Shown here: one piece after another, positions 26,111 to 52,560 of the stretch
Numbering within the stretch: the stretch's first letter is position 1
Layout: every line of letters begins with the position of its first letter
Assembly: GCF_002735925.1 (NCBI RefSeq)
Contig: NZ_PEDL01000005.1
Location: forward strand, 62,001-126,000
Length of the DNA: 64,000 nucleotides
DNA from: Sporanaerobium hydrogeniformans
Lineage (GTDB): Bacteria > Bacillota > Clostridia > Lachnospirales > Cellulosilyticaceae
Direction: 5' to 3'
The notes under the pieces: model-generated
What the model was told of the DNA's origin: nothing
What the model saw: only the letters and a program-made list of their open reading frames with translations
The model's database searches: none
Made by a program: the position numbers and the translations under genes

Positions 26111-26272
26111 ATGGAAAGTATGCGTAAAAGTATATTAGTACTGCAATCTGATTTGAATAGGCAGCTCATAAGTGGAAAACCAGGACTATTTAATAACAAA
26201 GCAGTTTATTCCCTTAGCTTGAAGTTGGACAAGGAGATTGTAAAATACTATAAAAAAGTTATGAATCATTAA
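26111..26272 (+). CDS. Spo0E-like aspartyl-phosphate phosphatase (53 residues)
   Basis: A short gene with a strong ribosome site (AAGGGGGATTTGAT before ATG), its own promoter and a strong terminator. The 53-residue product begins MESMRKSILVLQSDLNRQL and ends SLSLKLDKEIVKYYKKVMNH. The SxxxD motif (S-L-K-L-D) in a second helix followed by I-x-x-Y is the mark of Spo0E family proteins, which dephosphorylate Spo0A~P and hold back sporulation. The first helix also fits. Identification rests on this short motif and the size, so some caution is due. Confidence 0.72.
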   Translation: MESMRKSILVLQSDLNRQLISGKPGLFNNKAVYSLSLKLDKEIVKYYKKVMNH

Positions 26273-26382: not shown

Positions 26383-26411
26383 TTGAAATTTTTAGGGAAA
26401 ACGCATAAAAT
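26383..26411 (+). promoter_or_regulatory. Promoter of the division and cell-wall cluster
   Basis: -35 TTGAAA (26383-26388), a 17-bp spacer and -10 TAAAAT (26406-26411) put the transcript start near 26418, at the first MraZ box. Confidence 0.75.
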
Positions 26412-26417
26412 ATAAGA

Positions 26418-26453
26418 AAGTGGTATGAAGTGGGGACAAGTGGGGTGAAGTGG
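26418..26453 (+). promoter_or_regulatory. Four MraZ boxes at 10-bp spacing
   Basis: AAGTGG occurs at 26418, 26428, 26438 and 26448, that is, four direct copies exactly 10 bp apart, running from the expected transcript start to the ribosome site of mraZ. MraZ is known to bind repeated TGG-type boxes before its own gene and so repress the dcw cluster. Here the boxes take up the whole short leader. Confidence 0.85.
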
Positions 26454-26456
26454 TAG

Positions 26457-26886
26457 ATGTTTATAGGTGAATATAAACACAGCTTAGATGAAAAGGGAAG
26501 AGTGATTGTGCCTGCTAAATACCGTGAACAACTGGGCGACACCTTTATTTTAACAAAGGGTTTGGATGGCTGTTTGTTTATTTATCCTGTTTCAGAGTGG
26601 GTTATTTTTGAACAAAAGCTCAAAGACCTTCCACTGACTAATACCAATGCAAGAAAGTTTGTTCGTTTTTTTTTTATCAGGTGCAGTTGAATGCAGTGCG
26701 GACAAGCAAGGTAGAATACTGATTCCAAGTCAGTTAAGAGTATATTCTACCATTGAAAGAGACATAGTATTTATTGGCATGAGTAATCGTATTGAAGTTT
26801 GGAGCCATGAGAAGTGGGATGCTTATAACGCAGAAGAATTTGATGCAGATACAATTGCACAACAAATGGAAGAATTAGGAATATAA
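26457..26886 (+). pseudogene. mraZ: MraZ transcriptional regulator, frameshifted at T10
   Basis: MraZ is the DNA-binding regulator at the head of the dcw cluster. The first frame gives [20 protein letters not shown] to ...[10 protein letters not shown] and then stops at 26690. The rest of the protein ([20 protein letters not shown] ... NRIEVWSHEKWDAYNAEEF) is in the +1 frame up to 26886. The break lies in a run of ten T at 26666-26675; nine T would give a normal uninterrupted 142-residue MraZ with both SpoVT/AbrB-like halves. Both halves are well conserved, so this may be a sequencing error, a recent mutation, a switchable homopolymer or transcriptional slippage. The start ATG lies right after the last MraZ box. 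Confidence 0.88.
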
Positions 26887-26897
26887 AGGTGACTAAA

Positions 26898-27833
26898 ATG
26901 AAATTTGAACATGTATCCGTTTTATTAGAAGAATGTTTAGAAGGTCTTCAGATTAAATCAAACGGCATCTATGTAGATGGTACGTTAGGTGGAGCCGGAC
27001 ACTCTAGTGAAATTTGTAAGCGTCTTTCTAAAGAAGGACATCTTATTGGCATAGATCAAGATAATAATGCTTTGGCAGTGTCAAGGGAACGTTTAAAAGA
27101 TGTTTTTCCTAAGGTAAGCATTGTAAAAAGTAATTTTGAACAAGTCGATGAAGTACTTAACCAATTAGGCATTGAAAAAATTGATGGCATGTTGATAGAC
27201 TTAGGGGTTTCATCCCATCAACTTGATGAAGCATCCAGAGGTTTTTCCTATATGCAGGATGCACCTTTAGATATGCGTATGAATCAAGAAAATGCCTATT
27301 CAGCATATGAAGTCGTTAACGCATTAAGTGAAGAAGTATTATACACGCTTATTCGTGATTATGGTGAAGAAAAGTGGGCAAAACGCATTGCACAGTTTAT
27401 TGTAAAAGAGCGTCAACAAAAACCTATTCAGACAACCTATGAATTAGTAGAGGTCATTAAAAAGGCTATTCCTCATGGTGCAAGAAAGGATGGTCCACAT
27501 CCTGCCAAAAGAACGTTTCAGGCAATTCGCATTGAGGTGAATCGTGAATTAGATATTATTGAACCCACTATTCGAAAGATAGTAGAACGATTAGCAATAG
27601 GAGGGAGGTTATGTATTATTACGTTTCACTCTTTAGAAGATCGTATAGTGAAACAGACTTTTAAACAATTGGAAGATCCTTGTACATGTTCAAAGAGTTT
27701 TCCAATCTGTATATGTGGTAAAGTATCAAAAGTGAAAGTGATTTCACGTAAACCCATTCTTCCTTCAGAAGAGGAGATTGAATGGAATCCACGATCCAGA
27801 AGTGCTAAATTAAGAATTATAGAGAGAATTTAG
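26898..27833 (+). CDS. rsmH: 16S rRNA (cytosine(1402)-N(4))-methyltransferase
   Basis: A 311-residue RsmH (MraW), which methylates N4 of C1402 in 16S rRNA. The SAM loop [14 protein letters not shown] is at about residues 22-35, the catalytic region [19 protein letters not shown] at about 103-121, and [16 protein letters not shown] and [12 protein letters not shown] follow. I chose the ATG at 26898, which has AAAGGTG at proper distance; a GTG at 26889 would add three residues. It is the second gene of the dcw cluster. Confidence 0.96.
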
Positions 27834-28320: not shown

Positions 28321-30492
28321 ATGGAAAGACGACAACAATCAGTTAAAAAAAATCAAAATACCCTTTCTAAGACGCGCCTAAATAGGCGCATCTTTATTAT
28401 AGCCCTTTTTTTTATAGTTTTTATTATTTATATGATCTACCAAGTTACTTACATTAAATTCATACATGGTGAAGAGTATCAAAAGCAAGTTTATAGTCGG
28501 CTTATGAGTAGAGAAAGCCCTATCAATCCTCAACGAGGAAATATTTTAGATCGTAATAACAATACACTCGCAACAAGCTTTTTGACGTATGATATTACCT
28601 TATCACCTAAGGAAATTATGGAAGAGGAAGAGACGGATAGATATGTAATCTATGAAGCATTGGCTGAGGCAGTAGATAAAAAAGCGGAAGAAATTCAAGC
28701 TTTAGTTGAAAAGAATCCATCTTCTCAATATGCTCTTCTTGCTAAAAATGTAGCTAATGAAAAGGTAGAGGTTTTAAAAGAAAAAAAAATAAATGGAAAA
28801 GCTTTAACAGGTGTTTGGTATGATAAGAGTTTTATTCGAAGCTATCCAAAAAGTGAATTAGCTGCTCAACTTTTAGGGTTCTATAATAAAGATGGGCAAG
28901 GTCAATATGGTATTGAACAACAGTATAACGAGTATTTGGTAGGAGAAGCAGGTCGTATTTTCTCACAGTTTCAAGATGAACAAATCATTACAACAGAAAT
29001 GAAAGCAGTAGAAAATGGTGCCAACATACGCTTGACCATAGATGAAGTTATTCAGCAATATGTAGAAACAACCATGAAGAAATATATTAAGGAGTATAAT
29101 CCTGTTAATGCAGCAGCGATTATTGCCAATCCTAACACCGGCGAAATTTATAGTATGTACTCTTATCCAAGCTTTGACCCTAATCATTACAATAATCTTG
29201 AGGAGCAGTTGGGAAAAGAAGTATGGAATGGTTTAAATGAACAAGATAAAACGACAGCTCTTTATAGTGCATGGCGAAATTTTACTACACAGAATCCTTA
29301 TGAATTAGGTTCTACTTTTAAGCCTCTTTTGATAGCATTGGCCATCGATGAACATGCCATTGACTTAAATGATACCTATCTATGTCATGGGTCTATGCAA
29401 GTAGCTGATCGTTTAATTCATTGTTGGAAAACATCTGGACATGGTGAACAAACAGTAGAACAAGCTTTGGCTAATTCATGTAATATGGCCATGATTCAAA
29501 TTGCTGAAAAGATTGACTATGACTTGTTTTTATCTTATATGGATAAATATGGTTTTGGTGAGAGGACAGGTATAGCTTTGCCGGGTGAAGAAACAGGGCT
29601 TTTACATAACAAGCTAGGTCCTGTAGAGCGTGCAACTTATTCCATGGGGCAAACTTTTACAGCCACACCTGTTCAATTAATAAGTGCTTTTTCAGCTGTT
29701 ATTAATGGGGGCTACTTACTTGAACCGCTTGTTGTTTCAGATATTGTTGATGAACGAGGAGAAGTTCTTTATCATGCTAAACCAGTTATAAGAAGACAAG
29801 TCATATCAAAGGAAACTTCAGAACTTGTGAGACGCTATCTTGGTAAGGTAGTTGATGAGGGAGGAACAGGAGTTAATGCTCATATAAGTGGATATAAGAT
29901 TGGTGGAAAGACGGGAACAGCAGAAAAGGGAGAACGTGGAAATGAGAAATATATTGTTTCTTTTGTTGGTTACGCGCCGCTAGAAAATCCAGAAGTTATT
30001 GCCCTTGTTATTTTTGATGAAGCACCTGAAAAGAGTGGTGCTCCTACTAAGGCTTTTAAAGAGATGATGGGAAAAATCTTACCTTACTTACAGATTGAAA
30101 CAACTTCTAATATGCAAGAAACAAAAGAAGAACAAGGAGAAGTGCCTTCTCTTATAGGTAAGAATTTATATGAAGCTACGAGTTTATTACAAGCTCAGGG
30201 ATTAACGTATCAAAGTATAGGGGTAGGAACTCAAATAAAAAGTCAATATCCTAAGGAAGGAACGCTTTTGCCAAAAGGCTCAAGTGTACGCTTATATATG
30301 CAAGCAGAAAATCCAGGAGCATTGTTGGAAGTACCTAACTTAATCGGTATGAGTATTGAACAAGCACAGAGTTTGGTAGGGGAGGATTTTACTTTGTCAG
30401 GAAATGGGAGTGGTGAAATCACAAATCAAGTACCGAAAGCTGGAGCTAAAATAGAAAAAAAAGCACAAATAGTTGTACAAACATATCAATAA
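28321..30492 (+). CDS. pbpB: Septal class B penicillin-binding protein with two PASTA domains
   Basis: A 723-residue transpeptidase of the FtsI/PBP2B type that cross-links septal peptidoglycan. One N-terminal membrane helix (RRIFIIALFFIVFIIYMIYQ) precedes a dimerisation domain and the transpeptidase domain with S-x-x-K in ELGSTFKPLL (about residue 330), S-x-N in ANSCNMAMI and KTG in GGKTGTAEKG (about 531). Two PASTA domains close the protein (VPSLIGKNLYEATSLLQ; VPNLIGMSIEQAQSLV). The two-PASTA form in first position followed by a one-PASTA gene mirrors pbpB-spoVD of B. subtilis. Confidence 0.93.
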   Translation: MERRQQSVKKNQNTLSKTRLNRRIFIIALFFIVFIIYMIYQVTYIKFIHGEEYQKQVYSRLMSRESPINPQRGNILDRNNNTLATSFLTYDITLSPKEIMEEEETDRYVIYEALAEAVDKKAEEIQALVEKNPSSQYALLAKNVANEKVEVLKEKKINGKALTGVWYDKSFIRSYPKSELAAQLLGFYNKDGQGQYGIEQQYNEYLVGEAGRIFSQFQDEQIITTEMKAVENGANIRLTIDEVIQQYVETTMKKYIKEYNPVNAAAIIANPNTGEIYSMYSYPSFDPNHYNNLEEQLGKEVWNGLNEQDKTTALYSAWRNFTTQNPYELGSTFKPLLIALAIDEHAIDLNDTYLCHGSMQVADRLIHCWKTSGHGEQTVEQALANSCNMAMIQIAEKIDYDLFLSYMDKYGFGERTGIALPGEETGLLHNKLGPVERATYSMGQTFTATPVQLISAFSAVINGGYLLEPLVVSDIVDERGEVLYHAKPVIRRQVISKETSELVRRYLGKVVDEGGTGVNAHISGYKIGGKTGTAEKGERGNEKYIVSFVGYAPLENPEVIALVIFDEAPEKSGAPTKAFKEMMGKILPYLQIETTSNMQETKEEQGEVPSLIGKNLYEATSLLQAQGLTYQSIGVGTQIKSQYPKEGTLLPKGSSVRLYMQAENPGALLEVPNLIGMSIEQAQSLVGEDFTLSGNGSGEITNQVPKAGAKIEKKAQIVVQTYQ

Positions 30493-51456: not shown

Positions 51457-52560
51457 TTAGTGTTTAAGATGGATATTTTTAGTAGCAAACAGAATTGGTT
51501 TTGAAACAAGGCGTTGTGTATTTCCAGCTAAGAAGATAATAAAAAGTAGAAGAGCCCCTAACCAATAAACAGGTAAATAAAATGGAGTTTTTTCAACTTG
51601 CCATTGCCATAAGGGATAAAGACATTTAGTAAGGAGAAAACTTATAAAGCCTTGAGCAAGTTTATAGAAAAAGTAAGGTACTAGAGAAAAAGGTACTTTT
51701 TCAAGGATATAAGAAGTTTGAAATAGAATACAGATTCCTCCAAAGCCTAGAATAAAAGCAATCAGTGGAAGGCTAGTTGCAGGAGGAAGAGCAGATTGGC
51801 ATAATCCACTTACACCATTAGAAAGCTCTAGAAGACCCGAAAGAAATAAAAGCTGAGAAGAAGAAAGCTGAAGATGGTAAGGACTTATAAAAGCAGGTAA
51901 TACAGTGATAAAGAGGCTTACTAGCACGGAAAAGAAAATGATATATGCACCTACATAGACGATAGTATCCATACCGTTCTTAACTGCTTCATTAAAAAGA
52001 TTGGAAAAAGAAGAAGAGGACTGCGTATCATGGTGATTTCTTTTAAAGGAAGAAGCTCTAGCAGGAAAACGGCGTAAACAGATACTGATTAAAAAGGCAG
52101 AAAGAAAGTGGATAAAAAGTAAGAAGTAGCCTAAATGAGTGTTTTGGAGTAGTAGTGTACCTACTGTGCCAACAATAAATAAAGGACCACAGTTATTAGC
52201 AAAGCAAAGTACTTTTTGTGCTTCTGACAGGGAAAGATAATTTTGTTGATAGAGTTCCTTGGTTACTTTTGCCCCCATAGGATAACCTGCTATGAGACCA
52301 AGTATAAAAGCTAGCAAACTACCACCTGGTAGATGCCAGAGTCTTTGTGTCCACTTATTCATAGTGAATTGTAATTTGCCGAGAACATCAGAACCCATTA
52401 AAAGATTGACCAAAATAATAAAAGGAAGCAAAGAGGGAAGTACCTTATTAAACCAAAGAAGGAGTCCTGAGGAAGCAGCTTCAATGCAAAGCTGAGGATA
52501 AAGAAGCATAGTACCTAACAATAGAAAAATGAAAAAGATAAGGGTAATTTTTTTAAACAC
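51457..52560 (-). CDS. ylbJ: Sporulation integral membrane protein YlbJ
   Basis: A 367-residue membrane protein of the YlbJ family (nucleoside-recognition/Gate-type), needed for spore cortex formation in Bacillus. It has about eight to ten hydrophobic segments. Marks are GLLLWFNKVLPSLLPFIILVN, LAGYPMGAKVTKELYQQ and CFANNCGPLFIVGTVG. I chose the GTG at 52560, which has AAGGAGG at six bases; a TTG at 52566 touches the ribosome site. A terminator separates it from ylbM. Confidence 0.88.
   Translation of the reverse strand: MFKKITLIFFIFLLLGTMLLYPQLCIEAASSGLLLWFNKVLPSLLPFIILVNLLMGSDVLGKLQFTMNKWTQRLWHLPGGSLLAFILGLIAGYPMGAKVTKELYQQNYLSLSEAQKVLCFANNCGPLFIVGTVGTLLLQNTHLGYFLLFIHFLSAFLISICLRRFPARASSFKRNHHDTQSSSSFSNLFNEAVKNGMDTIVYVGAYIIFFSVLVSLFITVLPAFISPYHLQLSSSQLLFLSGLLELSNGVSGLCQSALPPATSLPLIAFILGFGGICILFQTSYILEKVPFSLVPYFFYKLAQGFISFLLTKCLYPLWQWQVEKTPFYLPVYWLGALLLFIIFLAGNTQRLVSKPILFATKNIHLKH

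Follow-up and report, generated by a model that had tools for sequence, protein, structure and literature searches.

A mraZ reading frame split at a run of ten T in a family with scattered loss of mraZ

MraZ and genes interrupted at homopolymeric runs

MraZ acts as a repressor in both M. genitalium and E. coli, and growth of M. genitalium is slower upon its loss (PMC8475190). In N. elongata MraZ acts as an activator, as its deletion lowered the expression of the next genes, and the deletion left the cell shape without significant defects (PMC9395523). In the multicellular Neisseriaceae the natural loss of mraZ has been linked to an altered mode of division (PMC9395523).

Genes that carry a short indel in an A/T run, are otherwise conserved and may be rescued by slippage are described from Blochmannia and Buchnera; there are four to eight such genes per Blochmannia genome, and the shift in dnaX is common to two species (PMC3017870). 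The tssM gene of Citrobacter rodentium contains an A11 run ahead of an early stop codon, and its full-length product requires slippage that adds an A, both products having been shown to be necessary (PMC4256274). With the E. coli RNA polymerase, an out-of-frame reporter is rescued to 10% by deletion at a T8 run, a value which rises with T-run length, and sequenced transcripts contain insertions at a level of 0.75-0.82% at T6-T7 (PMC6260861). Many bacterial genomes, a large share of the total, have been found to avoid long runs (PMC1088944).

The mraZ gene described here is reminiscent of the Blochmannia and Buchnera genes in having a run-associated indel in an otherwise conserved gene, and of tssM in that a run of about ten bases precedes an early stop so that the full-length product would need slippage. 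Unlike in Blochmannia, it is one gene in the sample, it resides in a run-avoiding 3.7-Mb genome and none of the relatives compared shares its shift, and unlike tssM it is known from sequence alone. In contrast to the Neisseriaceae, the loss of mraZ in the present family is scattered over species and comes without a known phenotype. A literature search brought up no recognisable report of a split or homopolymer-bearing mraZ among the matches listed.

The split mraZ locus

The locus lies in the window, which is the whole stretch of 64,000 nucleotides that was analysed, and belongs to a genome of 3.74 Mb in 64 contigs that is 99.66% complete. The family is taken to be Cellulosilyticaceae because the nearest named MraZ loci are those of Cellulosilyticum and other Clostridia assemblies. 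The mraZ gene is split at the T10 run, as the initial annotation had read from the letters; the two ORF halves (Table 1) are offset by one base and both match the MraZ domain PF02381 in a profile search (E 3.1e-21 for the first and 4.4e-19 for the second half; cut-off 23 bits), giving two tandem domains without a single continuous frame. Removal of one T yields 429 nucleotides, that is 142 residues plus a stop codon, in agreement with the length predicted for a T9 version; that the frame has to be corrected by a +1-type change likewise holds. A +1 slip or the loss of one U was correctly named as restoring the frame, to which a -2 ribosomal slip and the insertion of two U have to be added, as these restore it equally. 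A second mraZ copy elsewhere was rejected, since the genome-wide search for MraZ at E <= 0.001 returned two matches which are the two halves themselves.

Table 1. Features of the mraZ locus, with positions in the window
Feature	Position	Strand	Basis and remarks
Promoter-like site TTGAAA-17-TAAAAT before mraZ and the dcw cluster	26383..26411	+	Pattern match
Four putative MraZ boxes	26420..26453	+	GTGG at 26420, 26430, 26440 and 26450; 10-base steps
mraZ, first half	26457..26690	+	77 codons, TGA stop at 26688-26690; PF02381 75.6 bits
T10 run where the mraZ frame switches	26666..26675	+	Direct sequence reading
mraZ, second half (frame one base on)	26671..26886	+	TAA stop; PF02381 68.7 bits
rsmH (mraW), intact	26889..27833	+	PF01795 E 7e-125; next gene in the cluster

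The split gene is flanked by MraZ boxes on its 5' side, which are intact as had been claimed, and by rsmH on its 3' side, which is followed by two penicillin-binding protein genes, these three genes being open. With GTGG as the presumed consensus of the MraZ box, at least two such motifs at 10-base steps precede the intact mraZ in all ten relatives that have one and are found in none of the nine relatives without mraZ; among the eleven relatives that lack an intact mraZ only G023 retains two boxes, which are spaced nine bases apart. The same promoter pattern precedes mraZ in six of the ten relatives with an intact gene, and also occurs in G009, which has no mraZ, and in G016, which has a remnant.

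Several other elements are found in and around the cluster. An A9 run at 28781-28789 of the window lies within a penicillin-binding protein gene of the mraZ cluster that is open over 723 residues; it is one of five gene-internal runs of at least nine in the sample, and slippage could act there too. A small Spo0E-like ORF (26111-26272 of the window; PF09388 17.4 bits, below the cut-off of 23) is situated between mraZ and an ORF that we take to be lgt. A clearer Spo0E-like ORF (29.6 bits) is located directly 5' of rsmH in the mraZ-less G003 (L231), and small ORFs which by eye look similar precede rsmH in G009 and G020. A second, more distant RsmH-like gene is present beside the cluster copy in G000 (C7:61299-62189, L234; PF01795 E 1.8e-76) and likewise in G001, G008, G012 and G015.

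Loss of mraZ across the family

An RsmH match is found in 23 of the 24 family genomes, this one included; for comparisons of rsmH the Met at 26898 was taken as the start. With G010 (no RsmH match) and G018 (RsmH fragments only) excluded, 22 sites before rsmH are readable, and several of these genomes are drafts in which the stretch before rsmH nevertheless lies on one contig in each case. Ten sites hold an intact mraZ, one the split gene of the window, two a remnant (G016, L216; G023, L213) and nine nothing, so that decayed or missing copies are found at the very same place in the relatives. A MraZ match at E <= 0.001 is absent from the whole genome in all eleven of the remnant and mraZ-less genomes. 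In both remnants, as judged from the alignment, most of the first domain is missing and what remains is mainly a decayed second half. Over alignments of approximately 330-450 bases before rsmH, which possibly include non-homologous sequence, the G016 remnant matches G001 at 52% and the G023 remnant matches G022 at 59% and G019 at 60%; each contains 7-8 indels, which measure 1-15 bases and are mostly not multiples of three. Pairs of intact or split genes match at 77-84% with a single indel (G019-G022 84%, G001-G022 79%, G000-G001 77%). The five genomes of genus g8 (L221, L223, L227, L230, L232) have neither mraZ nor a MraZ-box array before rsmH; our guess is that this genus may comprise Epulopiscium-like giant bacteria.

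A losses-only count on the RsmH tree, a single-gene tree of 27 rows with 7 of its 24 inner branches open and with regain assumed to be absent, gives six losses when this genome is left out, and 1000 bootstrap trees give five losses (513 trees), six (399), four (57) or seven (31). This count replaces fewest-changes parsimony, which permits regain and arrives at six with or without this genome. On these counts mraZ appears to have been lost about 5-6 times in the family besides the present genome.

The T10 run and the age of the break

A single frame is maintained over the site in 102 of 103 distinct MraZ sequences, the sole split one being that of the window. The longest T run in the 48 nucleotides about the site measures 1-8 in the 102 others, five of which have T8, and ten in the window. 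One further locus (L017) stands outside this count as it holds one MraZ half only, the two matches of its genome being on two contigs. The shift is thus absent from the 102 other sequences in a set that holds no second genome of the same genus, and a hypermutable run of the kind expected of a phase-variable gene is not conserved at the site in the relatives. Two features that would be expected for rescue by slippage are present, namely an A/T run (about nine or more) where the frame switches and conservation of the remaining gene. Close relatives encode a conserved Arg-Phe-Phe-Leu at the site of the run which, written as CGT TTT TTT TTA, amounts to T9 and is the coding choice most prone to runs; the ancestral mraZ probably had T9.

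Such a run would be exceptional in this genome. A/T runs of at least nine occur five times in 590 predicted genes, as compared to 48 expected from 20 within-gene shuffles of synonymous codons (range 43-55), and eight times in 983 genes of G001 as compared to 69 expected. All five gene-internal runs here have a length of nine and none reaches ten, and the avoidance of runs of eight is weaker here (0.63 of the expectation) than in G001 (0.32). A T9 in mraZ would be a weak spot for both replication and transcription.

The second half of mraZ is free of stop codons and its nonsynonymous divergence (dN) is within the range of intact relatives. Towards four g9 relatives dN is 0.137-0.170, which is below the value of the intact G001 gene for three of these genomes and above it for the fourth (G012, 0.162 vs 0.140). 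Towards three g2 genomes it is 0.167-0.188, as compared to 0.115-0.129 for G001; the higher values are expected because G001 itself belongs to g2. Because many pairs approach saturation at synonymous sites, these figures provide a coarse clock. The promoter, the four MraZ boxes and the sequence past the break are equally undecayed, which leaves three options for the break, namely that it arose very recently, that it is compensated or that it is not real.

Assembly accuracy at long runs

The frame-change control compared approximately 700 kb of this genome, consisting of the window and other stretches (6 kb of L115 overlap the window and are counted twice), with 1.2 Mb of the one-contig relative G001. 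Of the 1049 non-overlapping reference ORFs of G001, 291 were matched at 70 bits or more, and 170 of the 291 had an identity of at least 45%. The search, with mraZ as its positive control, returned mraZ and one pair of 36% identity that has no long run (L128), and mraZ is the sole frame change among the 170 alignments. Two apparent extra splits were judged by eye to be antisense or boundary ORFs and disappeared with the non-overlapping reference set. In the aligned genes 79 A/T runs of 7-9 (61 of seven, 17 of eight, one of nine) and 213 runs of six are read straight through, a count that spans 146 kb at 168 distinct places, with 33 of the alignments on the window. These runs lie within one-frame alignments by construction, so that the test for breaks consists of the frame-change search together with a check for early stops. 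In the latter, 35 ends of the 170 alignments leave at least 15 residues unaligned and five of these are beside a long run, namely mraZ, one locus edge, two which continue in frame and one at 52554 of the window (T7, 46% identity). The roughly 700 kb contain 15 runs of at least nine, four of them in open frames of at least 100 codons, and the signature of a split gene occurs at the mraZ run only. A generally poor assembly is rejected for the sample on these grounds. The long runs of the sampled assembly are clean, but the aligned control contains few of comparable length (a single run of nine and no run of ten), and an isolated error at T10 may have occurred.

Origin and consequences of the split

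The explanation we consider moderately probable is that T10 is a real and very young expansion of T9, the first step of a recurrent loss of mraZ, and probably leaky. Plain loss leads because 11 of the 21 other family genomes with a readable site either lack mraZ or carry a decayed copy, and for the same reason a further loss here is unsurprising. Replication slippage would have added one base to the T9 which encodes Arg-Phe-Phe-Leu where the two MraZ domains meet, and the T10 allele would truncate MraZ after the first domain to leave a one-domain protein. The run would thus be present in the DNA of the cell, and the split gene would show the earliest visible step of a loss repeated in the family.

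Distinctly less likely, yet the most serious competitor, is a sequencing or assembly error, in which case the true genome has T9 and mraZ is intact and working. The initial annotation held error to be the main rival; the other long runs that were sampled weaken this rival without removing it. The T10 run exceeds any run inside the intact genes of the sample, and errors are likeliest in a run of such length, both the MraZ boxes and the second half look maintained, and according to one survey BLAST-validated singleton frameshifts are expected to reflect sequencing errors as opposed to real indels (PMC3711429). Set against this are the unbroken shorter runs in the aligned genes, a frame-change search whose one additional case has no long run, the open frames around four of the 15 longest runs with mraZ alone being split, and an avoidance of gene-internal runs of at least nine that is like that of the one-contig G001, runs of eight being less avoided here. 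The undecayed state of the locus fits an error and a maintained gene equally well.

That the T10 is kept as a recoding or phase switch, in which slippage or changes in run length set the dose of MraZ and the level of the division cluster, is improbable. The length of the run fits slippage, given the T8 rescue by the E. coli polymerase, the second half appears constrained and the boxes are intact, and precedents exist in tssM and in the Blochmannia genes (PMC6260861, PMC4256274, PMC3017870). However, none of the 102 other distinct sequences exceeds eight T at the site, and the on/off or dosage switch that had been proposed finds no support in them; the family moreover tends to lose mraZ outright. 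A programmed +1 ribosomal shift was rejected, as the run carries no stop codon and the RNA fold downstream of T10 is weak (z -1.89, with 9 of 200 shuffles as good). We regard it as similarly doubtful that a retained T10 serves as a rheostat, whereby slippage would supply a fixed minority of full-length MraZ and weaken control of the division cluster, this being a route by which the family moves off MraZ before the gene and boxes vanish. Least probable by far is that the halves act as separate one-domain proteins, with the 77-residue N-terminal half pairing with itself and the C-terminal half starting at an ATG at 26647. Each half is a near full-length match to PF02381 and this ATG is present in the second frame, but by eye no Shine-Dalgarno-like sequence precedes it and many relatives with an intact gene, G001 among them, have the same out-of-frame ATG across conserved codons; the G016 and G023 remnants, in addition, lack most of the N-terminal half and have a decayed C-terminal half.

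If the T10 is a young expansion, RNA polymerase dropping one U would give rise to a minority of full-length MraZ and hence to a leaky allele. Such slippage had been suggested from the sequence and is plausible in view of the 10% rescue at T8, with transcript insertions at T6-T7 remaining below 1%, which makes the true rate uncertain and means that leakiness may be small (PMC6260861). Perhaps a minority of full-length MraZ is left by T10 if the polymerase of the host acts like that of E. coli, and the division cluster would probably be little affected by the split. The assumption that MraZ represses its own cluster is true of M. genitalium and E. coli and fails for N. elongata; because both repressor and activator cases exist, MraZ may act in either direction in this bacterium.

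Taken alone, the split mraZ amounts to a young frameshift of the ordinary kind or to an error, and loss by a young frameshift is a kind of event that is already known. It does call for caution in annotation, as the split may be real. The newer and more useful result is the series of losses across the family, which is graded from an intact mraZ with its boxes, via a single broken frame and then eroded remnants, to a clean absence in which the boxes are gone as well. This series would allow tests of the purpose of MraZ and of how the division cluster is rewired after the loss of its regulator.
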